A DNA stretch of 20,635 nt from a virus, in the IMG/VR virus record IMGVR_UViG_3300035698_013046, positions 1 to 20,635 of that record. One strand, given 5' to 3'. Below, one piece after another: positions 1-20,562 of the stretch. The translations under genes and the position numbers were made by a program. Position 1 is the first letter of the stretch. Each line of letters starts with the position of its first letter. The notes under the pieces are model-generated. The model did not search any database and was not told the DNA's origin. It saw nothing but the letters and a program-made list of their open reading frames with translations.

Positions 1-3000
1 GCTACTTAACAGGTATCATAGAGCTTCTCACTGACCTAGAGGTCGATGGTGGCTACTTCATGGAGTATGTCCCTGCTTCTCCCTTAGAAGTTCTGGTGGT
101 CACGGCCCAAGAAGGTGACTACGCGTACGACCTTAAAATTCTAGATGATCCATCGTTCTCTATAAGTAAAGACAAGCTTGTCGTAAAATATGTAAACCCC
201 TCTGTATCTATCTCTAGTGGAGATAGCTATAAGTCAGAGCTTCTAGTTAGTAACATAGAGTACCTAAAAACTCTAGAGAGGGAGGGTAGTGGCGGCGCCA
301 TTATCCCGGGAGAATCCCTAGACCTAACTAATGCTGAGTTTGGTAACGCAGATAAGCTACTCACTCTTGACAGTAGTGTTAATACTGTAGGTCTTAGTTC
401 AAAACAAGTTCTCCTCTCTACCTATAAATATAACGGAGCCAATCTTCCTTATGCCCCAGTAGTTACGATACAGCATATAAGCCCTTCAGGTGGGAACACT
501 ATTCTTATTGAGGGAAAAGACGCGACTACTGAGATTTTTGTAGATGGAATTCTTCGTGCTTTTGCTCGTGATACAAAAGAGTTCTTTTATTTTAAGATCA
601 AATCTGTCGAACTGGTAGATGCTATCAATACAAGAGTTACGATCTATGGGGAATTCCCTAGCGATCTAAGAGATGCGTCGTTATCAGTGTCTGATAGCGC
701 TGTATCCTTTTCTGAGGATATGTACTCCATATCTCCCATAGCCATAAATAACTCCAACATCACTTTCTCTGGAAATCTCGCGGGTGTCCTTAGCCTAGGC
801 AAACTTATCAACATTGATGATAGCCAAGTATACTCAGTAGTGTCCTACACCTTAGCTGAAGATGGAAGCTCCACATCTGTAGAGGTATCACCTTCTGTAA
901 AGAAAGCGATCTTCAGCGGTAATGCTTCCCTTGGGAAGGTGAAGATCAGTACTCATATTCTATTCTCTGAGGGAGACAATGGGCTTATAGCTGCTGCCCC
1001 TGTCCTGGGCACACCTCTCAGCATTCTTAAGATAAAGCTGTCAGAGGCTTATGCAGGTGATGACAATGCCTTTGCAACTGTATTTATCGATAACAACTCT
1101 ATAATTCTGACGCAGACTCTGGGAAGCGAGATCACCGAGTTTGATCCAATTGCTTACAAAAGTCTAGAGTCCATACAAGAAGTTATCGATGCTATTGAGA
1201 TATTACCAGAGGGCTCTAGCACAAAAGCCTTCAGCGTTTCATGGATTGTACCTGAGGGCTCAGACCTGAAGAACTCCTATATCTTAAATACCCTAGGAGA
1301 GGCTGAGACTACTCAACCTATTCCTTATAACTTGAAGATCAGTCCTCAGGTGTTAAGAAAGAGGAAAGATGATACTGAGTATACCCCGTTAGTTCAGGGG
1401 GCCTCTGAAGGCAAGGGTGATTTTGCCGCGGTGAATGGAGTTATAGTTCTCTCAAGTTATCTATTGAGGGGTGACCGATTTAAGCTCACATACCAGGGAT
1501 TAGACCTCCTTAGAGATAAGATCGATCAAGAGATTTCTATAGCGGCTAAGTACTTTGTAGCAGCTAGTAAGGGGACCCAATTTAAGGTATCTCTAAATTA
1601 CCTCAACCCTGATCAATGGTTTGTACAAGCTATGACAGAGGCGGGATTCTTGGACCTGGTAGCTATTCCTAAGATCCTTGAAATGGTATCACAAAGAAAG
1701 GGCGCTCCTACTCAGGGGGTAGAGAATAACTTACCACCAGATCAGGGTAATGCCTCAGGCGGTGTTCAGGACAACTACTACTTTCTTCGTGATGAGCAGA
1801 TAAAACTTGCGATATACCGACAGATCTATCAATACTACACTGATAGAATGGCTGCCTTCGCCAAAGAGAATAAGTCCATTAAAGGCATGAACCTTGGTAA
1901 CAACGAGTTCTATCATCTTGAGGCTGATGATCGTTATAACTTCAGCACCCAGAGAGACCTAGATCAGCAATGCACCTTTGGCACCAGTAAGCTCTTACCT
2001 ATGGGGTGGGACAGGTCAGACTTAAAGCCTGATGATAGATTTGAGAAGGAGTACCTCTCTTACGGAGAGGCCAATTTCTATAACTATGATAGTAAGGGGT
2101 ACGTCATAGGGGATAAACCAGAATGGGTAGCGCGTAACATACACCCAGGTGACGAGATCAGACCTTACCAGACAGATACCTGGTACACTGTCGAGCAGGT
2201 AGTGCATGACAGTACTATAATTTTGACAGAAGAGCTTGAAGGCATAGAAACTGCCACGGTATTCTGGAACCCCCTAATGCAAGAATTAAATCAGATTGAA
2301 TTTAATGGGATAGTTCCTCAGGTTGGTCCGGTACCTAATAAAGGATTTCAGTATGAAGTCCGCAGGCAAGAAGCTCCTACGTACCCATTGGAAGATTCTC
2401 GTGGATTTATGGGTGCTCAGGCACAAGGAAAGAAGAAAGGTCCTATAACACTAGCATACACGGCTACTGGTATAGTCTCAGAATCTAACATCTTCGTGAT
2501 AGAGTGGTCCCCTGATGGCGGGGAGTTCTGGGCTCGTATCGACATAGATCTATCAGAGCTGGAGTTCCCCGCTAGTTTGCAGACCCTTCAGTCAGCACTA
2601 CTCGCTGATGAGGACTTTAGGGAGAGCTTTAAGGTAGATGTAGAATCTATTTATGACTCTAATCTAGATGTTTCCAAAACAGCCTCAGCCTCTTGGCCCA
2701 TCCTTCTAGTAGATCTAAAGCAGTATGTGGGGGTAAGAGAAGGTCTTGTTATTCGAGCTAGTAGAAAAGAGACCTGGTTCAGATTTCCAGAGCCCACAAC
2801 AACCGTAGATTTACTTGGCATAGGGTTAGTTAGTGTGTCTAAGAATGCTTCTAAATCCTTAGGATTCCCTAGAGGGTGGACTGACGGATCCGGGGTGCCA
2901 CAGGGTACGTGGTTCTTTCCAAGGTACACACCTTTTAATGCTGATGAGAATACTGCAGCAGAGCAGGTTGATCGTCCTATGCAGCTGCGACTATTAGAGG

Positions 3001-4421
3001 AGATGAAGGCACTTCCCTATAAGCTTGATAGAAGCAGTGCTGCCTATAAGGCAAGATGGATAGCTATTGGTAACTCAATTAAGGAGCATGTACTTCTAGC
3101 CCAAGCCGCTGTGTACCAAGCCCTTAGTCAAGCCGTTGTCATAGCTAATGAGACAACAGCTTCCCCTGCTATTGAGATATCTTATGAGAATGCTCTTATA
3201 GCCATCGAAGAGTACAGTGTTATAATTGCTGAAAACCTAGATTCCTATAACTATAATGAGGCTCTACTATCTATAGCCCTCACTGGGTTTGATAGGTTCA
3301 CATGGACTTTTGAGCAGGTGGCAAATAATAGAGCTATTCTAGCGGAGAACCTAAAAGCTTCTATAGCCGCAGGTAGCAATAAAACTATGGTATTAGCCAC
3401 GAGGGGGATAGAGCTAGATCCTAGAATACTTTACGGTGACGGGTCATCATTCCCTGTAGATGGTGTATCAGTTTATACCCCTCCTATATACATTGACTCT
3501 AACACTATTGGAGAGTTTAGCCAGGAGGTCAAGGGTGCCTGGGATACAGCTTCGAGCCCTAGCACAGCATTTACCATAAATTACACAGGTACGATATTTG
3601 ATTATAATGTAGTGATAGCCATGAATTCCATAAGTCTGAACGTACCCTCCGCGGCACCTCCCTTTACACGGGTATTTAGCCTACCCCTCTATCAGACTGT
3701 AGCACAGCTTGTATCGGCAATTACTTTCGGAACTGCTGGTGCCTTTCAAGCAGTGGCGCTGCCTGGTCAGGATGAAAGGTCTCCCAGTAATATGGATAAT
3801 GGAACCTACAACAGCATCGCTTCGGGATCTATCTCCCCTACCTTCTCAGTACTACCATATTCACCTTCAAGCACATCCTCTATACCAATGCAGGCGGCAT
3901 TTGGTCTTATACCCACATCCTCGGGACAGGAGTGCGCTATAACGCAAACGGGGATAGACCTCTATATTGGAGGAGCCCCTCAGAGCCTATCCTTTGCAGA
4001 TTATGGAAGTTTGGGCAGCCTTATGGATGCTATCAGCCTTCTACCTGGCTGGGGTATACTGAATGCAGGGACTACTGACCTCCTATATCCATACGGTGTA
4101 CTAGGGGAAAGGGACCGCGCTGTAGTTGGCGCCCTAACCATCCCTATTTACTATGGGATAAAGTCAGATATCGCTTTTCATCAGATATCAGATTATAATC
4201 TAGATGATGTTATCGCTCACACCTCTACTCGAGATGCTAAGCTAATTTCTAATAGGGAGTTCTATGATCTTCGGGAGTCTCAAAATATAGTTAGCGTTGG
4301 ACCCGATGGAGAAGACCTAAATGAGAATCGTAATCTTTGGCTGGATAGGATTGTCCATAAGGGTGAAGGTCCTTGCAGCTTCATTAAGATCTATAAGCAA
4401 AGATTAGAGGAGGAAGAATGA
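1..4421 (+). CDS. Giant beta-rich phage structural protein, 5' end outside window
   Basis: The reading frame is open from base 3, so the gene begins upstream; Met at base 60 is in frame but is probably internal. Residue numbers here count that Met as 1, giving 1,453 residues to the TGA at 4419-4421. I do not recognise the family. The protein is mostly predicted beta, rich in Ser, Thr, Gly and Asp, with no signal peptide visible in the part present. A small module with a closing helix of the type LxxaI seems to recur near residues 333-397, 795-870, 1170-1235 and 1289-1336. A G-x-x-I...Y-x-V strand module lies near 693-728. A long Ala/Glu-rich helical stretch covers about 975-1110, and the C-terminus is highly charged. 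Location in a late tail operon suggests a tail, baseplate or fibre component; that role is inferred, not shown. Confidence 0.8.
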   Translation, partial: YLTGIIELLTDLEVDGGYFMEYVPASPLEVLVVTAQEGDYAYDLKILDDPSFSISKDKLVVKYVNPSVSISSGDSYKSELLVSNIEYLKTLEREGSGGAIIPGESLDLTNAEFGNADKLLTLDSSVNTVGLSSKQVLLSTYKYNGANLPYAPVVTIQHISPSGGNTILIEGKDATTEIFVDGILRAFARDTKEFFYFKIKSVELVDAINTRVTIYGEFPSDLRDASLSVSDSAVSFSEDMYSISPIAINNSNITFSGNLAGVLSLGKLINIDDSQVYSVVSYTLAEDGSSTSVEVSPSVKKAIFSGNASLGKVKISTHILFSEGDNGLIAAAPVLGTPLSILKIKLSEAYAGDDNAFATVFIDNNSIILTQTLGSEITEFDPIAYKSLESIQEVIDAIEILPEGSSTKAFSVSWIVPEGSDLKNSYILNTLGEAETTQPIPYNLKISPQVLRKRKDDTEYTPLVQGASEGKGDFAAVNGVIVLSSYLLRGDRFKLTYQGLDLLRDKIDQEISIAAKYFVAASKGTQFKVSLNYLNPDQWFVQAMTEAGFLDLVAIPKILEMVSQRKGAPTQGVENNLPPDQGNASGGVQDNYYFLRDEQIKLAIYRQIYQYYTDRMAAFAKENKSIKGMNLGNNEFYHLEADDRYNFSTQRDLDQQCTFGTSKLLPMGWDRSDLKPDDRFEKEYLSYGEANFYNYDSKGYVIGDKPEWVARNIHPGDEIRPYQTDTWYTVEQVVHDSTIILTEELEGIETATVFWNPLMQELNQIEFNGIVPQVGPVPNKGFQYEVRRQEAPTYPLEDSRGFMGAQAQGKKKGPITLAYTATGIVSESNIFVIEWSPDGGEFWARIDIDLSELEFPASLQTLQSALLADEDFRESFKVDVESIYDSNLDVSKTASASWPILLVDLKQYVGVREGLVIRASRKETWFRFPEPTTTVDLLGIGLVSVSKNASKSLGFPRGWTDGSGVPQGTWFFPRYTPFNADENTAAEQVDRPMQLRLLEEMKALPYKLDRSSAAYKARWIAIGNSIKEHVLLAQAAVYQALSQAVVIANETTASPAIEISYENALIAIEEYSVIIAENLDSYNYNEALLSIALTGFDRFTWTFEQVANNRAILAENLKASIAAGSNKTMVLATRGIELDPRILYGDGSSFPVDGVSVYTPPIYIDSNTIGEFSQEVKGAWDTASSPSTAFTINYTGTIFDYNVVIAMNSISLNVPSAAPPFTRVFSLPLYQTVAQLVSAITFGTAGAFQAVALPGQDERSPSNMDNGTYNSIASGSISPTFSVLPYSPSSTSSIPMQAAFGLIPTSSGQECAITQTGIDLYIGGAPQSLSFADYGSLGSLMDAISLLPGWGILNAGTTDLLYPYGVLGERDRAVVGALTIPIYYGIKSDIAFHQISDYNLDDVIAHTSTRDAKLISNREFYDLRESQNIVSVGPDGEDLNENRNLWLDRIVHKGEGPCSFIKIYKQRLEEEE
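4408..4413 (+). promoter_or_regulatory. Perfect Shine-Dalgarno AGGAGG inside the end of the upstream gene
   Basis: AGGAGG lies four bases before the ATG at 4418, inside the last codons of the upstream giant gene. It is the strongest ribosome binding site in the window and is the main reason to accept the short gene at 4418. The ATG overlaps the upstream TGA as ATGA, the usual layout for translational coupling. Confidence 0.75.
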
Positions 4422-8408: not shown

Positions 8409-9161
8409 ATGGCTACAATAGACTTAAAAATTCAGAATATCTGCGATCACCGTGTCCAGGCAGAGGTCGTAACTCTCTATAACGACCAGAAGACGCTTGT
8501 TCCTAGATTCCTTATGATGAGTGAGGGGACGATAGAAGTCTATCGTTTTGGTCTTTTAGTGCCAAAAAGTGAGTACTACATAGCAGTTCTTGAAACAAGC
8601 GCTGATGAGCCAGGGACCTACGATTCTCAGAGAATAGTAGTGCTAAAGAAGCGCGATAGATATCTAGGGCCCGTATATACCATTAATTATGTTACTTCTT
8701 TAGACACCTGTCCTAAGTGCATGGGATTTAAGTTCACTGATGAGATTAAAATCGGATCTAAAGGGAACCTTAATACTGTAGAGGGCCTAGATCAGCTTGC
8801 ACAGAATATGGAAAAGAATGTTATCACTGATATAGGGACAAACCTATTCCATCCTTGGGTGGGGAACAATATCAGATCCTTGATAGGCCAGAAGGCACTT
8901 GACGTGAATTACATTGAAGCTGAGATAAAGAGTGAAATAAGATCTAGTATCTCTAAGTTTAGAGATACTCAAGTACAGCATGCTGATTCTAACCCAAGCG
9001 TTGGGGTGATTGAGCAGCTCAAGCAGATAGACTCTATCGAAGTTACAAGAGATAATGACGACCCTACAGTATTTAGAGCATTTGTTAAGTATACCAGTTT
9101 ATCGGGGCTATCTATAGAGTTTAACACTCTTGTAGATCTCCAGAATTTTAGGGTAAGATAA
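8409..9161 (+). CDS. gp25/W-like baseplate wedge protein with beta N-terminal extension
   Basis: 250 residues. An in-frame stop at 8391 limits the start to this ATG; its Shine-Dalgarno is poor (GGGG only two bases away). Residues about 138-250 resemble the gp25/GPW family of T4 and P2: a GTNLFHPWVGNNIRSLIGQK segment, where family members usually have a T-x-x-G...F...G motif; then helices, and a final beta section. In that family the protein joins the wedge near the sheath attachment and the gp6/J dimer. Residues 1-95 are an added beta-rich domain, joined through a CPKC motif (Cys101 and Cys104). Typical gp25 proteins are about 110-140 residues, so the extension roughly doubles the size. The next gene, two bases on, is the J/gp6-like partner, which supports the call. 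Confidence 0.7.
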   Translation: MATIDLKIQNICDHRVQAEVVTLYNDQKTLVPRFLMMSEGTIEVYRFGLLVPKSEYYIAVLETSADEPGTYDSQRIVVLKKRDRYLGPVYTINYVTSLDTCPKCMGFKFTDEIKIGSKGNLNTVEGLDQLAQNMEKNVITDIGTNLFHPWVGNNIRSLIGQKALDVNYIEAEIKSEIRSSISKFRDTQVQHADSNPSVGVIEQLKQIDSIEVTRDNDDPTVFRAFVKYTSLSGLSIEFNTLVDLQNFRVR

Positions 9162-9163
9162 AG

Positions 9164-12100
9164 ATGTCGGTACAAGCACCAAATATTCAACTTCCCAGCA
9201 GCGACAACTTCTACACCTCTGACTTAGGTCAGGTAGTGAGCGGTACTGTTACACATGATGTAACAAAAATAGGGTACACCTATGCACTGCAAGGAAGCTC
9301 GGACCCTACGGCGCCCTCGTACTCCGCAGAGATATCCTATGTTGCAATGTCACTCACAGCCCCTGTTACTGGTAATGAGACCATGCTTCCATGGTCCTTT
9401 GATAGTCAGTACCTTGAGGAGACTCTAGAGGTAGGTAAGAAGCTATCACTCAGATTCTATGCTATTGATGAGGTCTCTAACACCACTAGCCTTCCTTCAG
9501 AGATTGTAACATACTTTGTAGAAGAAGAGCAGATTCTCATTAGCGCTCCCTTGGTAACAGGTCTTGAAGTGCTGAGAAAAAACACTTCTTTAACCGTGGT
9601 TAATAAGAGCCCTGAGATGGCAGGTTTCCAAGGGGACCTACTCGGGCTAAATTATTACATCAGTACAGAAGCTGGTGGCGGGGTGTCCGGATATACCCGG
9701 ATGAATGAAGAGCTAGTTACAGTACCCTACCAGATTGTTGAATCAAAGATAGAAGTAAGTGATGAAGTAAATAAGGCTGGTGGCACAGAAGTCAATACTA
9801 TTGAGTATCAGGTAAGTGAAGAAACAGAGTTTCGATATTCACTAGATAGTCAGATTTTTGAAAGATTGATCAATAATGGATCTCTGCCTAGTATCAACTA
9901 TAATGAGACAACCGTATTTTACTTTGTAGTCACCTCCGTAGTTTTTGATAATGAGTTAGCACAAAACATAGAGAGCGACTTCAGTCCTGAGGTGGAAGGA
10001 AGATTCGTCACTTTTCTACCTCTATATAGGGATCTTCCTCCTAGAAACATGCAAGATATAACCTTGTCCATGTCTCGTAGCATGCTTAGTAAGAACTCAA
10101 AGGTGAATCTTGCTGCAGGCAGTGTGCTTAGGGATCTTACAGATCCAGTATCTAATGAGTTCTCTAATCAGTACATCATTCAAGACTTTGTATTCAGATC
10201 TGGTTCATGGGATGGGCTAGTAGGCTTTGATGATGCCGATGGTGATGGATATTCTGACCCAGTAGAAGAGAGCTCTTTAAAGATCCGATTAGCTCAGGCA
10301 TTAAAGATCGCAAACAGCTCGCAGTTGCAGGCCATAATCGATGAGTCCTTTGACAAGCTCGCTGGAAACTTCAATACTACAAGGCTTCCAGGATCACCTG
10401 CTTCCGGTCAGGTAATATTCTATGCCCCTGAAATTCCTATCGATGGATTAGAGATTCAAGATGGGGCTGTAGTGGCTAGCGCTCCTGATGAGGATAGTAC
10501 AACATCTACTCAATTCCTGGTTCAAGGCTCAAGATTCATACCATTTGAGAACAAAGACACTTTTTACAACATGGACACAGAGCGCTATGAAGTCATAGCA
10601 GACATCGTCTCTTTCGCCTCTGGTGAAGATGGCAATGTAAATGCCGGTACGATTACCATAAGAGTCTCTGGGGTGGATAGCAAGCTTAAGGTTACTAACA
10701 CCACTCCTACTACTGGGGGTAGAGACTTTGAGCTGAATGTATCATTAGCCAATAGAGCTAAATTGGGGTTTGTCTCACTTGATACCGGTACCGAGGGAGC
10801 CTATATGAAGGAATCCCTAGCTGTTAGCGGTGTTGAGCAGGCCCGAGTAGAAAAGAGTGGCGACTCCCTAATGAGGAGAGACATCCTTAGCACTGGAGAG
10901 GTTGTGGGTGGGAAGGTTGACGTGTATATCAAGGGGTTCAGAAGCCTCCAGACCTCTGATACCTTTGCCTTTCAGTACGAGAGCCCCTCTACGCTTGGAA
11001 CCGAGGGAGGAGAGAGATTCTTTGTTGAGTCCGCTTCCTACTTCAGACTTAGGACTTTAAATCCTAAGGTCGGAGCAGCCACCCCTATCTTTGAAGCTAC
11101 GAAGATCAGAAACGTCACAAGATCCAAAGACTATGATATGGCTGGAATCGTTGTGGGTGCAGGCGATGGAGATACCGTGCAACTAGCTCAGAACTCCTCT
11201 AATATCGCGATCGGAATGGCCACACTAGATGTTATTGAAGTCGATTATAGATATAGAGGTTCAGATACATACACAACTACTACCCAACCGCTAGAGAGCG
11301 TCGTTTCCGTAACTGGTGATCTAGACGGAATACTGCCTACAGAGAACTACCGTGTTGTCAAGCTAGAGGATCCTTTACTTGCCGGAAGGAGTACTGAGGC
11401 GAGTGATGGTATCAAGATAGTCTTTCTTAATGGCAGGCCTACAGAAGCTCTGCAGACTATTGCAGCCGAATCTCACCAGTTCTTAACACTAAGTGCTGTT
11501 AGCCTGCGGAAGATGGGAGTGGATCCTGATACTATTGTGGTATCGGCGGATCCCGAGCAAGCTCAGGTGTACGATAAGGATGTTGACTACTCCATAGTTA
11601 TAGGTAACGGCCGTACAGCTACCCAAATAATATCTCAGCCTAACAGCGCCTTAAGAAACGGATCTATCGCTTATGTTTCATACTCCTGTGGGCAGAACTT
11701 CACTATTGTGTACTCAGTTAATGGAGTACTGCAGGATGTTAAGGATAAGCTTGAGGATGAGAAGACTGCTAGTGCCGGTGCTGATGTAGCGATAAAAGCT
11801 GCAGTTAGGAACCAGGTTCAGATCTCTGTTCAGGTTATAAGAAAAAACAATACTGAAGAGATCGATGTTATCAATAAGATCCAGACTGTCTTAGGAAATT
11901 TTATCAACCAAAATCAGATGGGACAATCGCTCTATCTTGATGATGTTGTTTCAAAAGTAAAGAATATTGATGAAGTAGATCATATCCTGTTGCCTGTGTC
12001 CGTGATGCAGAAAGCTGATGGGTCCTTTATCCCTAATGATGTCCTAGGTTCTGTAGACTTCATAGTCTACAATGAGAACTCAAATAGTGGCATCACATCA

Positions 12101-12460
12101 TATGTGTCATCAGATCCTGTACTCAATTACGGGACTGTGGATAACGGTGGACCCTCCAACTTATTTAGGACTGTATATGAGAATGGCATCCAGCTAGTAA
12201 TGGCTGAATCCTCTCTAGAAGTCTCACAGATAAGGGGCCGGGCCTACATACAGGCTGATGGAAGAATCATTGTTAGTACTAGGGACTCAGAACCTCCTCA
12301 GTTGAAACAATACTCCGCAGCATATTATACATTTGAAGCACCTGGTGAAGAGAAGTCAGGTGATATCTTCGTAGATCAGATTGAACATCTTTGGGCCGGG
12401 GCGAATAGCATACAAGTTGATGCTACAGCTGTTCAGGTTCCTATTAAGAGAGGTCTCTAA
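9164..12460 (+). CDS. gp6/J-like baseplate wedge protein
   Basis: 1,098 residues. Residues about 1-290 are Ig- or fibronectin-like beta strands. From about residue 294, the segment PPRNMQDITLSMSRSMLS leads to GSVLRDLTDPVSNEF and IIQDFVFRSGS, the usual opening of Baseplate_J proteins. A calcium-type loop follows, D357-A-D359-G-D361-G-Y-S-D365. The GSPASGQVIFY strand near 410-420 fits the family's G-x-V core. Residues about 870-965 (AGADVAIKAAVRNQVQISV through VDHILLPVSVMQKADGSF) match the C-terminal Baseplate_J pattern. T4 gp6 and P2 J form the dimeric wedge that holds the baseplate ring and opens on contraction. P2 J is about 300 residues, so the extra length is added beta domains. The gene follows the gp25-like partner and shares its last base with the next ATG (TAATG). 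Confidence 0.78.
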   Translation: MSVQAPNIQLPSSDNFYTSDLGQVVSGTVTHDVTKIGYTYALQGSSDPTAPSYSAEISYVAMSLTAPVTGNETMLPWSFDSQYLEETLEVGKKLSLRFYAIDEVSNTTSLPSEIVTYFVEEEQILISAPLVTGLEVLRKNTSLTVVNKSPEMAGFQGDLLGLNYYISTEAGGGVSGYTRMNEELVTVPYQIVESKIEVSDEVNKAGGTEVNTIEYQVSEETEFRYSLDSQIFERLINNGSLPSINYNETTVFYFVVTSVVFDNELAQNIESDFSPEVEGRFVTFLPLYRDLPPRNMQDITLSMSRSMLSKNSKVNLAAGSVLRDLTDPVSNEFSNQYIIQDFVFRSGSWDGLVGFDDADGDGYSDPVEESSLKIRLAQALKIANSSQLQAIIDESFDKLAGNFNTTRLPGSPASGQVIFYAPEIPIDGLEIQDGAVVASAPDEDSTTSTQFLVQGSRFIPFENKDTFYNMDTERYEVIADIVSFASGEDGNVNAGTITIRVSGVDSKLKVTNTTPTTGGRDFELNVSLANRAKLGFVSLDTGTEGAYMKESLAVSGVEQARVEKSGDSLMRRDILSTGEVVGGKVDVYIKGFRSLQTSDTFAFQYESPSTLGTEGGERFFVESASYFRLRTLNPKVGAATPIFEATKIRNVTRSKDYDMAGIVVGAGDGDTVQLAQNSSNIAIGMATLDVIEVDYRYRGSDTYTTTTQPLESVVSVTGDLDGILPTENYRVVKLEDPLLAGRSTEASDGIKIVFLNGRPTEALQTIAAESHQFLTLSAVSLRKMGVDPDTIVVSADPEQAQVYDKDVDYSIVIGNGRTATQIISQPNSALRNGSIAYVSYSCGQNFTIVYSVNGVLQDVKDKLEDEKTASAGADVAIKAAVRNQVQISVQVIRKNNTEEIDVINKIQTVLGNFINQNQMGQSLYLDDVVSKVKNIDEVDHILLPVSVMQKADGSFIPNDVLGSVDFIVYNENSNSGITSYVSSDPVLNYGTVDNGGPSNLFRTVYENGIQLVMAESSLEVSQIRGRAYIQADGRIIVSTRDSEPPQLKQYSAAYYTFEAPGEEKSGDIFVDQIEHLWAGANSIQVDATAVQVPIKRGL

Positions 12461-15400
12461 TGGCTCAGAATTTAGGTAATGGGGTATCTTACGTATTTGA
12501 GGCCGAAGGCTATAATTACGATAAGGTTGTATTTAACGATGGCAGACCACCACTGGCCTCAGAACTAAACTTGGCTCAAGAGCTAGGTGACTTACTGAAC
12601 AGAAAAAGATCTGCAGATACGCCTTCAGGTTGGTTTACCGCAAATAAGCCTCATGTAGATCCTGCGCTAGTTAATAGCTTCCTCACACAGGATCCTAGCT
12701 CACCTACTCCAGAGATAGCTATCGTAAATGGTTGGCCTATACTAGTTACAAATACTGCGTACCAAACGCCTCTTGTAAATAAGGTAGACCTTAGCAACTT
12801 CCCACTACTTAAAGGGGCTCGTATTGACGGGGTATTTCTAGAAGTATGGAGAGCTAATATCGATGAAGAGAATGATGGAGTAACCTCTCCGGATACTGTA
12901 TCTAATATCTCCAATCTCAAAACAATCTATGCAATCGATGCACAGGTAGCATGGGCAGCTGGAACCAACGGATCTTTAGCTAAGACGGAAGATGGTGGCT
13001 CTAACTGGGTGGTACAACCCTCACCTACTAGCTACTCTATAAATGATATTAAGTGGCAGACATCCAGTATTGGGTGGATCGTATGCGATAATGGGTCTCT
13101 GTATAAAACGAATAACGGAGGCGTTACTTGGTTTAAGATAGGGCTAGGAACAAACTCAAATCTTAATTCGATCTCAATCATCGGTGATAACAAACTTTGG
13201 ATTTGTGGAGACAACGGCGCCCTTTATAAGACTGAGGATGGAGAAACTTTTAGGGAGCTTGTGAACACACAGGGTACCTCTGAGAACCTTTCCAGCATAT
13301 TCATGTATGATGCGATAGTCGGTTGGGTTTGCGGGTCTGAGGGAACTTACCTTAGAACACAAGATGGTGGAGAGAGCTGGAGTCGTATACCCATTTTCCT
13401 AGATACAGGAACAGAGCTTGGACGGAGCGTATCTAGCCAGCTAAACGCTGTACAGTTCGTCAACCTTAATGATGGTTGGGTTGTTGGAGACGGTGGCCTC
13501 ATCCTTAGATCTGTTGATGGCGGTAGAACCTGGGCAGATACCAGCAGTGCAGTATACAATTCTGAAACAGAAGAGTACGCTCCTATTACTAGGAATCTCA
13601 ATGGAGTCTCTATCTATAGAGAAGAGCCAGTCCAGATCAATTTAAACCTTTATAGGGCACCGGCACAAAGAGAGGCATACTTCAGCAGCGCTAGCTATGT
13701 CGTGACCCCTACAACACTAGTTCTTACTTATATAGAGAGAACTACAGGCACTCCTTACTCACAATCACTTATACTAGCCCGGTATCCAACAGATCAGGAT
13801 CTTGTTGACGCTATTAATGCCTTGGTGCAGAACGGCCTAAGGGTCTTTGGGGCCTCTTTAGACTTCACTGAGACGGCCTACACCAGTCGTACTAATACTG
13901 GCTCAGTTTCCAATATCGAAATTACTCAGATTATATTCTCACTTGGAGACAGAGCAGGGATCGTCGGTGAGGGTGGATTAGTTCTCAGCACCTCTAATAG
14001 TGGAGCTCAATGGCTTATAGAAGACATGCCAGTATCCTTCGATCTGTATAGCTCTTCTTTCATAGACTCTAGTACCGGTTGGGTAGTAGGAGAGCAGGCC
14101 ACAGTTGTTTCTTATGATGCAGCGCTAGCCAGTCCTTGGACTCGACAGCAGACAGAGCTTAAGAATAAGCTACAGCGTAAGATATACTTTGAAGGGAATA
14201 CCGGAGCACTGAATAGCTCCAACCCTAACAACAATAGCATTGACCCTAATGTTAATATTGAAACAGCCACTAGGACCCAGCTTCAGTATAGCATCAGGGT
14301 TATTGAAGGCGTTGATATTACGAACTATCAAGAGGCCGGACTCGGAGCTGAATATGTTCTAGCCCTCGGGCCTAATGGTAACATAGCTGATGCTGGGACT
14401 AACAAATTCGTTAACATGGGAGCCGCTAGAGGGGACTATGGATGCTGGAGAGCTGGCTGTAGAAATACTACTGATGGTTATAGTTGGGCTGTGCCCATGT
14501 TCCTGGTCTCTAGAAGAAACCAAGCCCCTTTCAATGCTGCATCGAACATTAATGGTTCCACAGTTCAGGAACTTAACATAGTTCGACCTGATGGCACTCT
14601 CCCTAACCAGATTATTGAGTCTGACATAGTTGATATTAGAAAGAATATCAACTTTTCAGACTTAGCGGCAGAGCTGGGAAATGGTCTTGATGCCCTACTC
14701 GGTGATACACTAAGAACTAAAGTTAAAAGAGCCTCAGAGAACGGTGCTCAGTCAGGTACAACCTATCTGGTAAGTGATCCTTTTACAGGTCTTGAAGGAA
14801 GTAGAAGTGTTGTAAAGCTGGCACAAGGTGATGTGACTAGTGAATATGTTGCAAGAACTATTTTCTTGGGAGATACCACAGTTGCTGATGGCGACACATC
14901 TATCACTATAACGGCCACAGACGGTACAGGTATTGATGCGAGTGTTGGGAAGCCTACGGAATCCGACTTAACCTTCGCTACCACTCCTAATACACTTTAT
15001 AGTGCTGATAGTACCAACTACTCAGCTAACTACTCAATCAATGAGGACCTTGACGGTATCGCAATTCCAGGCATCTTTGCTAATGTAGGAGATACCCAGC
15101 CTTCCTTTATCCTAGGGCAGGATGTAGGTACTCTTACGACTGAGAAGAGGAATGACGCTGACCAGTACGGTAGAGAGATCAGAGTCACAGGATTTGTTGT
15201 GGAGTCCGGCTATATTAAAGCTGGAACTCAAATCCAATTTGGTGATGAGTCAGGAACCCTTTATACCGTTGTGGAAGACTGCGAAATAGGGGCATCCATA
15301 GCTATTCTGATACTAGACAGGTCTGTTGAGCTGCCTAAGAGGTCTACAACTGTGACCTTCCAGGAAGCGGTATATGGGGTGGACTACTCTGGCCTGCTAT

Positions 15401-16992
15401 ATGTCATCAAAGCCCAAAGAAATGATTACAGCGTTTCAGGTCTTAGAACAATTCCTACGACACCCTTATCAGTACGTAACTCTGATAGCTCCTCTGAGAC
15501 ATTGACTGCTTACTTCAGCAGTATCGATGACACAGAAGAGAGTAGGGAACTTCTTAGTATTGCTAGTACTGTGCCAGGAATCAATAATACTGTAAGGGTA
15601 ATTCCAGGAACCAGAGATTTCTCAGATTCTACTCAGCAGCTAAAAAGCTCCTTAGTTGAGCTAGACTATTGGGTACAGGCTCAGGAGACTACTAATATCC
15701 TACGGGTTCCTAAGAACTACAATGGGTATACCATCTATAGTGTAAAAGCTATTGTTGGCCAGGACGATACCAGCTACAGGATCTTCCAGCTTAGAGACCG
15801 CGAAGAGATAGCTGGTCAAGCTTTTCCTTCGAAGAGCAATATCATAATCGAACTCAGTGAAGCCTATAGGGTCAATGAGGGAGATATCGTGAAGATCGTA
15901 TGTGAGGTTAACTCTGACTCTGACTCAAATAGCAACTTCAATGATACAGTTTTAGGGATCACCGGAGAAGACTATGGTGAATCCGTAGCCAGCTTTAGAA
16001 ATAGCTTTGTATCTACCTTCAGATCTAGGGTTGGTGCTGTAGATAGCTTCTATCAGTCATTCCTTGTAGAAGCTCAGACAGGAAGTATCGAGAATAGCGG
16101 TGTAACCGTAGCAATCTCAGCTCCTGAAGGAGCCATCGTTCTTGGTGTGTCTAAGTACAGTACTAGAGAAGAAGTTGATGAGAACTATTGCTGGTTCATT
16201 GAAAGCACAAGTCTAGAAGCCTACACAAACAATGACCCTGCCTCCTATCTTCAGACTAAGAGAATCACTGTTCTTAGTGGCCATGGTACAAACACCCTGA
16301 CTATCAGATTGGAAGATCTGGGGACTGCAACACAAGGTACGATTCTAGTGCCAATGCTGCTACTAAACACGGCGTTACCTAATAGCCTAGACTCTAGTAG
16401 TGCTCAGGCTTTCTACAGATCCTCTATGTATCAGACTGTTGATGGTATCCTTTCAGAGGTAGACCTCTCCGTAGTGCAAAATCCTACTCAGATGTATATC
16501 TCGAATAATGGTAGCGGTGGCGGTATAGATGGCTTAAACTACGGTAACCCTATCCTGCACATTCCAACTCCGGATGATATCACAACAAATGCAGCATTCT
16601 TTAACCCAGATGGGTTGTGGTTTGACGGCGCCTTTGTTGAATCAGGTTTCACAGCAATGCCTTTACAGGATGCTCCTTTAGTCGGAGACTCGCTAACTAT
16701 TGCAGACCCTACGATGGATAGGCTGGGAAGAGCCTATTATCAGACTGCCAATGATACCTTAAATTGGACTGCAAGGCCTATGCAGAAGCCGGCACCTAGG
16801 AAGATTTTTGTTCCGATGCTGGTGAAGGTTAATTCCAACGTAACATCTCCTTTCTTAAGAGGTGAGATACTTCTCATGGTCGTATCTAAGTCTCTTAATA
16901 TGCAGCTGGAAAATAAGATAAATCTAAGTGATGCCGTGGGGGATACTCAGGTAGCCCTTTACCGCTTGCCTAGAATGCCCATGGTAAGGTAG
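12460..16992 (+). CDS. Baseplate-associated protein with seven-bladed Ycf48/BNR-type propeller
   Basis: 1,510 residues. The ATG overlaps the upstream TAA, with GAGAGG seven bases before it. Residues 1-60 include FNDGRPPLASELNLAQELG, a conserved-looking phage N-terminal segment that may dock to the virion. Residues about 152-558 form seven GW-x-x-G...T-x-D-G-G-x-x-W repeats like those of Ycf48 and other Asp-box propellers. The Asp-boxes begin at residues 175, 216, 257, 299, 350 and 510; the seventh repeat is degenerate. A different module (about 407-465) interrupts repeats five and six. Residues about 640-760 hold a GCWRAGC pair and SWAVPMFLVSRRN...DIVDIRKN, a pattern I associate with large phage tail proteins. 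The remainder is beta-rich. Its place between J- and I-like genes suggests a peripheral baseplate or adsorption protein. There is no catalytic evidence for a sialidase. Confidence 0.75.
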   Translation: MAQNLGNGVSYVFEAEGYNYDKVVFNDGRPPLASELNLAQELGDLLNRKRSADTPSGWFTANKPHVDPALVNSFLTQDPSSPTPEIAIVNGWPILVTNTAYQTPLVNKVDLSNFPLLKGARIDGVFLEVWRANIDEENDGVTSPDTVSNISNLKTIYAIDAQVAWAAGTNGSLAKTEDGGSNWVVQPSPTSYSINDIKWQTSSIGWIVCDNGSLYKTNNGGVTWFKIGLGTNSNLNSISIIGDNKLWICGDNGALYKTEDGETFRELVNTQGTSENLSSIFMYDAIVGWVCGSEGTYLRTQDGGESWSRIPIFLDTGTELGRSVSSQLNAVQFVNLNDGWVVGDGGLILRSVDGGRTWADTSSAVYNSETEEYAPITRNLNGVSIYREEPVQINLNLYRAPAQREAYFSSASYVVTPTTLVLTYIERTTGTPYSQSLILARYPTDQDLVDAINALVQNGLRVFGASLDFTETAYTSRTNTGSVSNIEITQIIFSLGDRAGIVGEGGLVLSTSNSGAQWLIEDMPVSFDLYSSSFIDSSTGWVVGEQATVVSYDAALASPWTRQQTELKNKLQRKIYFEGNTGALNSSNPNNNSIDPNVNIETATRTQLQYSIRVIEGVDITNYQEAGLGAEYVLALGPNGNIADAGTNKFVNMGAARGDYGCWRAGCRNTTDGYSWAVPMFLVSRRNQAPFNAASNINGSTVQELNIVRPDGTLPNQIIESDIVDIRKNINFSDLAAELGNGLDALLGDTLRTKVKRASENGAQSGTTYLVSDPFTGLEGSRSVVKLAQGDVTSEYVARTIFLGDTTVADGDTSITITATDGTGIDASVGKPTESDLTFATTPNTLYSADSTNYSANYSINEDLDGIAIPGIFANVGDTQPSFILGQDVGTLTTEKRNDADQYGREIRVTGFVVESGYIKAGTQIQFGDESGTLYTVVEDCEIGASIAILILDRSVELPKRSTTVTFQEAVYGVDYSGLLYVIKAQRNDYSVSGLRTIPTTPLSVRNSDSSSETLTAYFSSIDDTEESRELLSIASTVPGINNTVRVIPGTRDFSDSTQQLKSSLVELDYWVQAQETTNILRVPKNYNGYTIYSVKAIVGQDDTSYRIFQLRDREEIAGQAFPSKSNIIIELSEAYRVNEGDIVKIVCEVNSDSDSNSNFNDTVLGITGEDYGESVASFRNSFVSTFRSRVGAVDSFYQSFLVEAQTGSIENSGVTVAISAPEGAIVLGVSKYSTREEVDENYCWFIESTSLEAYTNNDPASYLQTKRITVLSGHGTNTLTIRLEDLGTATQGTILVPMLLLNTALPNSLDSSSAQAFYRSSMYQTVDGILSEVDLSVVQNPTQMYISNNGSGGGIDGLNYGNPILHIPTPDDITTNAAFFNPDGLWFDGAFVESGFTAMPLQDAPLVGDSLTIADPTMDRLGRAYYQTANDTLNWTARPMQKPAPRKIFVPMLVKVNSNVTSPFLRGEILLMVVSKSLNMQLENKINLSDAVGDTQVALYRLPRMPMVR
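12913..14133 (+). repeat. Seven degenerate Ycf48/Asp-box propeller repeats
   Basis: Seven imperfect protein repeats of about 40 residues share GW(V/I)xG-x-x-G-x-(L/I)-x-x-(T/S)-x-D-G-G-x-x-W. The Asp-box segments are KTEDGGSNW, KTNNGGVTW, KTEDGETF, RTQDGGESW, RSVDGGRTW and STSNSGAQW, followed by a seventh copy (GWVVGEQATVVSYD) that keeps the GW part but not the box. Repeats one to five are contiguous; roughly 150 residues separate the fifth and sixth boxes. Seven copies would close a standard seven-bladed propeller. The similarity is at protein level; no long identical DNA repeats were noticed. Confidence 0.8.
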
Positions 16993-16998
16993 TAGTTA

Positions 16999-19900
16999 AT
17001 GGCTATAAAAGATAAAGAAAGGATCGCTGCTCAGCAGGAGAAACGTGGGCGTTTAAGGTTTAGAACCAACGCTGAGTTTCTCCGCACCCTCTCAGTACTG
17101 TCTAATCAAACAGCCCAAGAGATGCATGATACGTTACCTAGTAACTATCCTGAGACTCTACTGGGTCAGATTGGAGCGCTCTTTAGAACGTGGTCTGAGG
17201 AGCTTATGCTCCTTCAGGATGGCACTAACCTTGTTAATGAGGATAAGTACTATCAGAATACCAGGGCAGAGTATCTATGGCAGACGCTAGCTTCCCTTCT
17301 TTATCTAGGTGATAGGTCTACTAATGTCCTTGTGGATAGCGGCGAGTATCGCACATTTCTAGAGAAGGTAAAGGACTCATTCTTTAGGGGGTCTAACCCA
17401 GAGTCCCTAGAAGAATCTCTTACTGATATCACAGGCATCCCAGTAACTATAAGGGAAGCCTACAAGCTAGCCAAAGATCCTAATAGCTTTTTCACACTCA
17501 AGGATGCCAATAAGATTTGGATCGATTTAGACATGGATAGTGTCATATCTACAAATAGTATCGGTATGCTTATCCAAGACCTCTTCTTCTTTATCGAGTT
17601 GATAAGGCCCGCCCATATCCTGTTTGATGTCAATCTTATTTGGAATGATAAGATTAATATCAATGACTGCCCTAACCTTGTTTTTGGTGCCTCACAAGAT
17701 GGCATCGCTCAGAGATACGACCTTTCTCCTATGCAGGAGAATATCTATGCTATATCCAAGATGAGTTTCTTTCTTCTGGATTCTGCGAACTCCACTATAG
17801 TTGAGGAAGGGTGGCAGACCGGGATAGTAGACTGGATCGATGATCAAAATAATACCATCTATATGCAAGATGGAACAATCTGTGTAATAACCCTAGCCAG
17901 CTATTTGTACGACTGGGACGAAGAGGGAGACTTCCGAGTTGATTGGAGTGCTCTAGCTCCTGGCCTGGAAGTTGTGTACACGGGTGTTAAGGCTACTGGG
18001 TGGTTTAAGTTTCATAATACACCGCAAAGGATTATACTAAATCTTTTCTTGCAGTTTGATCCTCTGTACCAGGTTACCCCTGAGTTCCAAGGCGCAGTTG
18101 TCAAGCAGTACGGAGATAATGGACGGTTCCCAGAGTTTGATAAGCTGTGTGATGATGTTGTGGCAGACCAACCAGCTTCGGATTTACTCATGCCTATGTA
18201 TGAGGATATGCGAACTTTTTGTGAGTGGCCAGAAGCCGGACCTATTTATGCTGAGTTCTCAACACCCTCAGCTACCCCAATTTTTTCGGATATTGAAGGC
18301 GCGCAGGATCTACCAGCCTACCTGAATGCTTCAGATGCTCCAAACGCATACCAGATGCCAAGCATCCCTATGTTCAATTCCTCAAGTGATCTTATTACTG
18401 CTGAAGAGATTGTCCTATACGTCAATGGGTCCAAAGTTCTTAATGGGGTTGAGTACGTTGATCCCATCGCAGGAATCGTGTTTCTTAACTTTCAACCACC
18501 AGCTGGTGCAAACTTAAGGATTTACTACTACTGGGCTGAGGGTATCCTACCTGTTGAGTTCACACAAGATTACTTTATAGAGTGCGAAAATACTTTTTGT
18601 GGTCCTTGTGGCGTAGACACCGTGCCGCTACCTGTACCCGGAGACACCGTACAAGACCTTGGAGCCTGCCTTTCAATCATACCTGCAGGAAGTTACGTCC
18701 CAAGATTAAACTGGCCTTATGCAGTGCCTTCAAGCATGAGAGGAGACTCTTATGACTGGCAGATGGATAAGTACCCTATTCTTGACGAAGAAGGACTACT
18801 GGCAGAAATCGGTGACATCTCAGTCTACCTTGATGGGGTACTTGTACCTAATGCTGTAGAATCCATGCAGCCCTTATTAGGCCATGTCCGCATCACCTTC
18901 ATACCTGCAAATAACTCTACAATCAGCTTTCAGTATTACTACCAGAGCAGAAGCCGCCAGTACGGTATGCTCTATGATGCACTACAATTCACGACTGATA
19001 CTGTGAACGGAGATGTGTCTCCCTACTCATTACTTTCTGATATAGTAGCAGCTGATGCCGAGTCTGGAGCCTCTCGAGCCCCAGTGAAGCCTTATGAGCA
19101 GATCTTATCGATCGGGTATAAGTATAGAGCTTACAATCTGTCGAATACCTCGGTACTTAACTCTTCAGATACATTACTACTATCTAGCTACTCTAAGCCT
19201 TCTAATAAGGCCTCACTTGCCTTAGCGCAGAATAAGTTGAGCTATGAAGACCAGATGTACAGTGCCGAGTTTCTTAAGGACACAGATAATTATGTCGTAC
19301 TAGATGACGCCTACCTGCAAAGGAGTAGTCCTAGCCCATTAACATGGCTTAAGAAGGGAATACCTCTTTTCGTCCAGACCTTCACGGATACCGCAGCTTT
19401 TAGGTACCTAGTAGAGATAACTCCTACTGAATCTACTTTTCAAAATGAGATTCCAGGGGCTCAGGATATGGTCGGCTCTCTGGCGATCAATGCGAAATAT
19501 GAGCAGTCTGGATTGGTAGAGCATGCACCTCTAGCTCATTATGCAGAAAGCAATAAGCTACTTCTCTACTCTGATCTTAAAATGTTTACAACAGAGGTGG
19601 GAACAGACCTTCCATTATCCTCTGTATGTGATACAAACATGATGGATTTAGATCTTCTTATCGAAGAAGAGTACTATCCTAACAGAGAGATTAGGCTGAA
19701 CAACTACAAGGACTACCTAAAGAGGGAGATGCTCCCCGTAGATACTGCTGGATCGCTAAAGGCCATCAATGGTAGTAAGCTAGTCAAGTCTGCTGATACA
19801 AATTGGAATGCAGTCAGAAGTGGCTCCATAGTGCATATCGGAGAGATGGAGTATACTGTCTCTGATGTCCTTAACGATAGAACTATTCAGCTGAAACAAC

Positions 19901-20562
19901 CTTTCGGAGGAGACTCAGGATACCATGACTATGAGATCGATAGAGAGGTAGTACGTCAGATAGACGTTCTCTTTAACAATGTTGTGCGTAAACTGAAGAT
20001 CAACACTAATAAGCTGGCGGGACTCCCTGGAGAGAGTTGGATAACAGTAAACTTTCCAGACCCTGATCCAGACCCATATCCTAGAAACCCAGGTAATCCT
20101 GATATTGCCCCAACAATACCACCTCTACTAGATAGCCAAATTGATCCTGAGGGGGGTGAGTCTAACTTCTTCCTATCGGAAGAGGAAGCTGATAAGCTGG
20201 TAAAGTGGAGAAACTGGGACCAGAACATGTTCTTTTATACAGGTCTAGGCACTCTAGAAGAGGACTTAAACTCTGCTGTAAACATGGATGACCTTGCAGA
20301 AGGTATCAAGATCTTATGGTGGAACCCCACAACAGGTGAGTACGTTACTCAGGTGTATAGTGGAACGCTGATTGAGACGAGCCAAGAGGCTGGCTATGTC
20401 TTTACCTCGGACTACCCTAACGGTTTGATAAGAGTATTTGATACTACTGATACAGAGGACTTAAACCTCAATAACTACAGGTTGAAGAATACCGTCATAC
20501 GTCAGGTCAACCCAGATAATAGCGTGGTGCTAGTTCAGGTGAACGAGTTCGTTAGACCCTGA
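16999..20562 (+). CDS. gpI-like baseplate protein with large C-terminal extension
   Basis: 1,187 residues, beginning six bases after the previous TAG. Residues about 25-220 resemble the P2 I tail-protein family: a helical start (LLGQIGALFRTWSEELMLLQ), YRTFLEKVKDSFFRGSNPES, then DITGIPVTIREAY, and a closing FFFIELIRPAHILFDVNLIW, close to the typical RPAHT-L-D ending. P2 I is about 180 residues and sits at the baseplate rim, where it joins the wedge to tail fibres. The remaining 950 residues are mainly beta. They include a possible SH3-like segment (about 272-345), two similar modules (about 469-515 and 605-652), a Cys cluster (C529, C534, C537, C557), a G-x-I...Y-x-V module (about 941-971) and a Pro/Asp-rich linker (about 1021-1050). 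The extension probably forms the arm or fibre mount; that is inference. Confidence 0.7.
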   Translation: MAIKDKERIAAQQEKRGRLRFRTNAEFLRTLSVLSNQTAQEMHDTLPSNYPETLLGQIGALFRTWSEELMLLQDGTNLVNEDKYYQNTRAEYLWQTLASLLYLGDRSTNVLVDSGEYRTFLEKVKDSFFRGSNPESLEESLTDITGIPVTIREAYKLAKDPNSFFTLKDANKIWIDLDMDSVISTNSIGMLIQDLFFFIELIRPAHILFDVNLIWNDKININDCPNLVFGASQDGIAQRYDLSPMQENIYAISKMSFFLLDSANSTIVEEGWQTGIVDWIDDQNNTIYMQDGTICVITLASYLYDWDEEGDFRVDWSALAPGLEVVYTGVKATGWFKFHNTPQRIILNLFLQFDPLYQVTPEFQGAVVKQYGDNGRFPEFDKLCDDVVADQPASDLLMPMYEDMRTFCEWPEAGPIYAEFSTPSATPIFSDIEGAQDLPAYLNASDAPNAYQMPSIPMFNSSSDLITAEEIVLYVNGSKVLNGVEYVDPIAGIVFLNFQPPAGANLRIYYYWAEGILPVEFTQDYFIECENTFCGPCGVDTVPLPVPGDTVQDLGACLSIIPAGSYVPRLNWPYAVPSSMRGDSYDWQMDKYPILDEEGLLAEIGDISVYLDGVLVPNAVESMQPLLGHVRITFIPANNSTISFQYYYQSRSRQYGMLYDALQFTTDTVNGDVSPYSLLSDIVAADAESGASRAPVKPYEQILSIGYKYRAYNLSNTSVLNSSDTLLLSSYSKPSNKASLALAQNKLSYEDQMYSAEFLKDTDNYVVLDDAYLQRSSPSPLTWLKKGIPLFVQTFTDTAAFRYLVEITPTESTFQNEIPGAQDMVGSLAINAKYEQSGLVEHAPLAHYAESNKLLLYSDLKMFTTEVGTDLPLSSVCDTNMMDLDLLIEEEYYPNREIRLNNYKDYLKREMLPVDTAGSLKAINGSKLVKSADTNWNAVRSGSIVHIGEMEYTVSDVLNDRTIQLKQPFGGDSGYHDYEIDREVVRQIDVLFNNVVRKLKINTNKLAGLPGESWITVNFPDPDPDPYPRNPGNPDIAPTIPPLLDSQIDPEGGESNFFLSEEEADKLVKWRNWDQNMFFYTGLGTLEEDLNSAVNMDDLAEGIKILWWNPTTGEYVTQVYSGTLIETSQEAGYVFTSDYPNGLIRVFDTTDTEDLNLNNYRLKNTVIRQVNPDNSVVLVQVNEFVRP
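18403..18954 (+). repeat. Two similar beta modules within the gpI-like protein
   Basis: Residues about 469-515 (VLYVNGSKVLNGVEY, then GIVFLNFQPPAGANLRIYYY) and about 605-652 (VYLDGVLVPNAVES, then GHVRITFIPANNSTISFQYY) follow one pattern: V-x-Y-x-(N/D)-G-x-x-V, a gap, G-x-V-x-(L/I)-x-F-x-P, then a polar turn and a Tyr-rich strand. They look like duplicated small beta domains separated by about 90 residues that include the cysteine cluster. Identity is too low to show at DNA level. Confidence 0.5.

Follow-up and report, generated by a model that had tools for sequence, protein, structure and literature searches.

W7, a 1510-residue phage protein encoded in a baseplate gene block, contains a closed, seven-bladed Asp-box propeller that is inserted, as a whole, in one loop of a tail domain conserved among huge phages. 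The propeller was acquired once, in the ancestor of one lineage of large-genome, contractile-tailed phages, and has been kept since. Propellers of this kind are common in bacterial surface proteins and are best known from a photosynthesis helper, and little has been learned so far about huge-phage baseplates. One propeller clade set against propeller-free sisters at the same loop provides a clean with/without comparison of a single added domain, which lets experiments ask what one domain gives a contractile tail.

The gene for W7 lies within a baseplate gene block

The window that we analysed is one entire virus record, a fragment of 20,635 bases, in which four tail genes are read in one direction (+ strand, as are all features given below). 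They encode a gp25-like sheath initiator (8409-9161; phrog_975, E = 9.3e-9; PF10934, 2.5e-6, under the PF10934 cut-off), a J-like or gp6-like baseplate wedge protein (9164-12460; PF04865 (Baseplate_J), 1.1e-15; phrog_6, 1.5e-23), the propeller-bearing baseplate protein W7 (open reading frame 12460-16992) and an I-like baseplate protein (16999-20562), recognised through its N-terminal domain by phrog_1160 (9.4e-7) and by alignment with outgroup I genes. The stop codon of J overlaps the start codon of W7 in TAATG at 12458-12462, and 6 bases separate the W7 stop from the start of the I-like gene. The baseplate block of the window encloses W7 between the gp6-like J and I genes, the position assigned to it by an earlier note made from the sequence, with which the PF04865 and phrog_1160 matches agree. 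A scan of the window for RNA families and tRNAs found none, and DNA comparison with the nearest phage records gave no match for it. The contig opens with a frame of 1472 aa (3-4421) that is incomplete; it weakly matches a distal tail protein (phrog_1302, 6.5e-4) and has a single isolated Asp-box-like motif, SPDGGEFW.

W7 contains a closed seven-bladed Asp-box propeller

Pfam, AlphaFold2 and Foldseek all identify residues ~152-563 of W7 (12913-14148) as a closed seven-bladed Asp-box propeller. The Pfam PSII_BNR model (PF14870) matches with an E-value of 4.4e-23 and 82.4 bits, compared with a curated cut-off of 27, and a sequence search of the PDB returns Ycf48 chains (E = 7e-17), a match that a profile from 20 relatives lifts to 4.5e-36. 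The AlphaFold2 model, obtained with an alignment of 25 relatives as input, has 28 strands arranged in seven four-stranded blades at 153-563, with pLDDT mostly 80-93, and Ycf48 is the top solved fold for the propeller in Foldseek (E = 1.4e-14). The earlier note had placed the propeller at 12913-14133, that is, residues 152-558 of the frame, and had named structure prediction with a fold search as one way to check it; the closed propeller and the first rank of Ycf48 bear it out.

On the basis of the AlphaFold2 strands and a motif search, blades 1 (153-185; 12916-13014), 2 (194-227; 13039-13140), 4 (277-309; 13288-13386) and 5 (328-361; 13441-13542) carry the Asp-boxes TEDGGSNW, TNNGGVTW, TQDGGESW and SVDGGRTW, which start at residues 176, 217, 300 and 351, respectively. 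Blade 3 (235-266; 13162-13257) has a degenerate box, TEDGETF, at 258, blade 6 (380-520; 13597-14019) has TSNSGAQW at 511, and blade 7 (529-563; 14044-14148) has none. These six Asp-box-like motifs sit in the C-D turns; in 20,000 shuffles the number of such motifs averages 0.12 and never exceeds 3. Where seven GW...Asp-box repeats had been described in the earlier note, the count of seven holds for the blades; the Asp-boxes are six, one of them degenerate, and GW occurs in blades 2, 4, 5 and 7 only. Blade 6 is further distinguished by a nested insert of ~95 residues in its A-B loop (391-487; 13630-13920), modelled by AlphaFold2 as strands and a helix, that separates strand A from strands B-D and that, in the alignment, is not alike in the two subclades of propeller proteins.

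The propeller interrupts a conserved huge-phage core

The tail domain into which the propeller is inserted, hereafter the core, comprises residues 1-142 (12460-12885), which end in VFLEVWRA, and residues 571-770 (14170-14769), with the pattern YxxGNxxxL...RTQLQYSIRV; the propeller is thus near the N-terminus, as previously described, and more precisely lies inside the N-terminal domain. Both halves of the core match proteins of the huge phages LR745208, Tunturi_5 (gp247) and Bacillus phage G (gp211), and alignments show the halves joined almost directly in all three; gp211 and gp247 share both core halves with W7 but have no insert at the propeller site. A scan of viral contigs with a single protein found nothing, but a profile of the conserved core alone succeeded, and reveals 318 relatives, which also support the second core half as conserved; searches of PHROG, Pfam and the PDB find no relative of the core. 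A comparison of 117 open reading frames shows a spacer of 399-507 aa between the core halves of the propeller proteins. Five other proteins have 113-139 aa at this point, and all the remaining ones have 4-27 aa. Those five have an unrelated domain at the same site, e.g., in L004 (26409-29639; PHROG 28344), which suggests that the core loop tolerates insertions.

In the AlphaFold2 prediction, for which confidence in the W7 core is moderate, core strands 121-134 and 605-615 flank the propeller. The linkers at 134-150 and 568-606 are modelled with pLDDT <50, from which we infer that the propeller is probably mobile on W7.

The remainder of W7 is a C-terminal part (771-1510; 14770-16989) that AlphaFold2 predicts to be all-beta. 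It gives no confident match in the PDB, PHROG or a fold search, and phrog_1302 was rejected as a relative, its E-value of 0.006 being too weak. The final 170 residues are common to a paralog in LR745208. In Tunturi_5 (L002, 23208-32484), gp246 and gp245, annotated 'regulator of chromosome condensation', adjoin the core protein gp247; gp245 consists in part of six Ig-like He_PIG repeats, and an RCC1 match is absent in a Pfam search of it.

The propeller was acquired once and is linked to a distinct gene order

A maximum likelihood tree of the core unites the 25 distinct propeller proteins, without exception, in a single clade, with support of 100/100 and recovery in all 200 bootstrap trees. The gene order follows the same division. 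All 19 records with a propeller have its gene directly behind J (gp6); in those that include I, the distance from J to I is 4 to 33 kb, and I is itself followed by a second core gene, which never carries a propeller in these phages. In records without a propeller, I is 21-51 bases behind J (7 of 7), with two core genes further on. The window has the gene order of the propeller records. The propeller gene may be either a duplicate of a core gene or a core gene that moved; every well-covered record, with or without the propeller, has two core genes.

Several features of individual relatives were also recorded. A contig from a metagenome-assembled genome named Candidatus Altiarchaeales (L120, WJJK01000053.1, 1-3966) encodes the propeller, the second core half and the C-terminal part, and is probably a mis-binned phage contig. 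The L024 record (469,617 bases) has a second PSII_BNR stretch at 227511-228287; the frame that encodes it is 2338 aa long and lies far away from the baseplate genes. A variable block immediately behind the propeller gene of L017 (14958-17714) and L009 (12692-20594) encodes collagen-like, PKD-repeat and LamG-lectin proteins and second propeller proteins of BNR/sortilin type, and glycosyltransferase genes are interspersed in these blocks.

Conservation and selection

Mean pairwise identity within the propeller clade is 0.53 for the core, 0.40 for the propeller and 0.36 for the C-terminal part, and the C-terminal half of W7 evolves as fast as the propeller or faster. The D-A loops on one propeller face are the most variable class, with a mean identity of 0.30; such loops are variable in propellers generally. 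Wherever dS is estimable in the ten pairs of relatives compared, dN/dS lies at about 0.04-0.25, with a single value of 0.40 in the C-terminal part; dS is saturated in many cells. Selection on W7 is purifying, and no positive selection on the propeller is seen in these ten pairs. Of the propeller positions invariant in at least 90% of the members, almost all belong to the scaffold, as Gly, Trp or Asp-box residues; none is an Arg, Glu, His or Tyr, which leaves the propeller without a candidate catalytic set.

W7 shares the fold of Ycf48

From sequence comparison, the W7 propeller is Ycf48 in fold only, and not Ycf48 itself. The earlier note had matched the repeats to Ycf48/HCF136 (PSII_BNR, PF14870), and this stands for the fold, with seven Asp-box blades and the top solved structure in common. 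The label does not stand: W7 scores 86.8 bits with the Ycf48 equivalog model, for which the cut-off is 326, and the arginine cluster common to Thermosynechococcus and Synechocystis Ycf48, a candidate for the conserved arginines that bind chlorophyll proteins, is replaced in the W7 alignment. W7 further differs from Ycf48/HCF136 in being a 1510-aa phage protein and in the nested insert of blade 6. The HMM searches proposed at the outset are divided in the same way, with PSII_BNR clearly matched, the Ycf48 equivalog cut-off missed and the sialidase families without a match.

For the best stretch of a phage propeller profile, the median score is 151 bits on cellular bacterial proteins, from Bacteroidota, Poribacteria, Ignavibacteria, Acidobacteria and others, vs up to 54 on Ycf48, a comparison from which the highest cellular match, L120, is to be omitted as it belongs to the phage family. 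The nearest cellular relatives of the propeller are mostly large bacterial repeat proteins. No cyanobacteria are found among the best 80 matches of a genome scan, a weak absence since that scan, run with a propeller profile of four sequences, relies on short peptide patterns. A Photo_RC (psbA-type) gene was sought in 15 related propeller records, mostly partial, and none was found. A Ycf48 taken over by the phage to act on photosystem II of the infected host would account for Ycf48 being the best solved structure match, but with the equivalog score, the absence of Photo_RC from these 15 records, the missing arginine cluster, the closer relationship of generic bacterial BNR propellers to W7 and the incorporation of the propeller in a baseplate gene all against it, we give it virtually no credence. 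A label of 'photosystem II assembly factor' on phage tail proteins of this kind denotes a fold, not photosynthesis.

Possible roles of the propeller

We propose that W7 would be a structural protein of the virion, situated on the periphery of the baseplate in a contractile-tailed phage with a large genome. The conserved core (1-142 with 571-770) presumably fixes W7 to the baseplate beside the gp6-like ring, and a whole seven-bladed Asp-box propeller, one of the broad PSII_BNR type of bacteria, entered a hairpin loop of this core once. Suspended on the two poorly ordered linkers, the propeller could use its faces to dock another virion protein, e.g., a fibre or an adjoining wedge component. Judged on such comparative evidence, the chance that the propeller is a baseplate docking module is about even. 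Docking is favoured by the fixation of the propeller in the lineage, its coupling to gp6, the purifying selection acting on it and the fact that it was never swapped, as well as by separate fibre genes near the propeller gene in some members; the collagen, PKD and LamG/BNR fibre genes after the propeller gene in L009 and L017 indicate that dedicated adhesins exist elsewhere.

The earlier note had left open whether the propeller binds a host surface glycan or holds another tail protein, and the evidence leans slightly toward the latter. An auxiliary host-binding domain at the baseplate rim, which would bind a host surface glycan or protein in irreversible adsorption, is a serious contender whose chances we put somewhat short of even. 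To our knowledge, phi11 Gp45 is the only characterised phage receptor-binding propeller, and it is thought to bind the host, which counts against docking. The propellers of phi11 Gp45, PRD1 P2 and phiKZ gp131C are known or suspected receptor binders (PMC4901313), the fibres of eCIS include beta-propeller lectins (PMC12923769), and the loop domain of AlgoCIS Alg11, made up of carbohydrate-binding modules, is proposed for attachment (PMC8894135). The variable D-A loops and the faster evolution of the propeller relative to the core (0.40 vs 0.53) also fit a variable host ligand, the flexible linkers of the AlphaFold2 model equally fit a projecting adhesin, and the large bacterial repeat proteins that predominate among the cellular relatives point the same way. 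However, every lineage member has the same fold at the same place with no domain swap inside the clade, the propeller is not the fastest part of W7, and ligand-site residues are not conserved; docking is favoured over host-surface binding because the invariant residues are scaffold only and selection is purifying. A broader form of the docking proposal makes the propeller a general hub that carries interchangeable fibre modules (collagen, PKD, LamG, BNR), in a lineage founded when one bacterial surface-type propeller was inserted in a baseplate protein and its gene was placed between J and I; this strikes us as rather doubtful.

An enzyme, e.g., a glycosidase that cuts host polysaccharide, is very improbable. 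Many glycosidases are found among Asp-box propellers, and a glycosylhydrolase model, NF045728, gives a weak match (1.2e-5, 24.7 bits), but this score is far under the cut-off of 175, the sialidase and GH74 families give no match, and Arg, Glu, Tyr and His are never invariant in the propeller. A sialidase (GH33) identity was considered and rejected, with no family match and the Arg triad unsupported by any invariant Arg; the earlier note had likewise seen no sialidase signature.

Comparison with known systems

Other phage baseplates with propellers have been described before, namely in phiKZ (gp131C), phi11 (Gp45) and S-CAM9; a partial search of the literature found no paper on Ycf48-type propellers in phage baseplates. 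Like W7, phiKZ gp131C (PDB 4GBF) has a seven-bladed propeller, in this case on the periphery of a jumbo-myophage baseplate and of unproven function, but the propeller is C-terminal in gp131C and an internal loop insertion in W7 (PMC4901313); 4GBF is absent among the best 50 Foldseek matches of the W7 propeller. Staphylococcus phage phi11 Gp45 is likewise a propeller protein attached to the baseplate, but it is a trimeric receptor-binding protein with five blades, the glycan site of which is modelled only (PMC4901313). In contractile injection systems, Alg11 domain IV and the Cis11 cage domain resemble the W7 propeller as large domains added to a baseplate wedge protein, but consist of carbohydrate-binding modules or other folds, and neither paper mentions a propeller (PMC8894135, PMC8894136). 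The virion of jumbo phage CBB contains a kelch propeller protein (PMC5259590).

The wedge protein of Synechococcus phage S-CAM9, at the gp7 place, also presents an Asp-box propeller gene directly behind gp6. This protein (L119, 2888-14542) differs from W7 in its length of 3884 aa and in the location of the propeller near the C-terminus (about 3360-3660), and the W7 core was not detected in it. The Foldseek matches of W7 include the wedge initiator of cyanophage S-SSM7, and the S-CAM9 wedge protein additionally has a YHYH domain.
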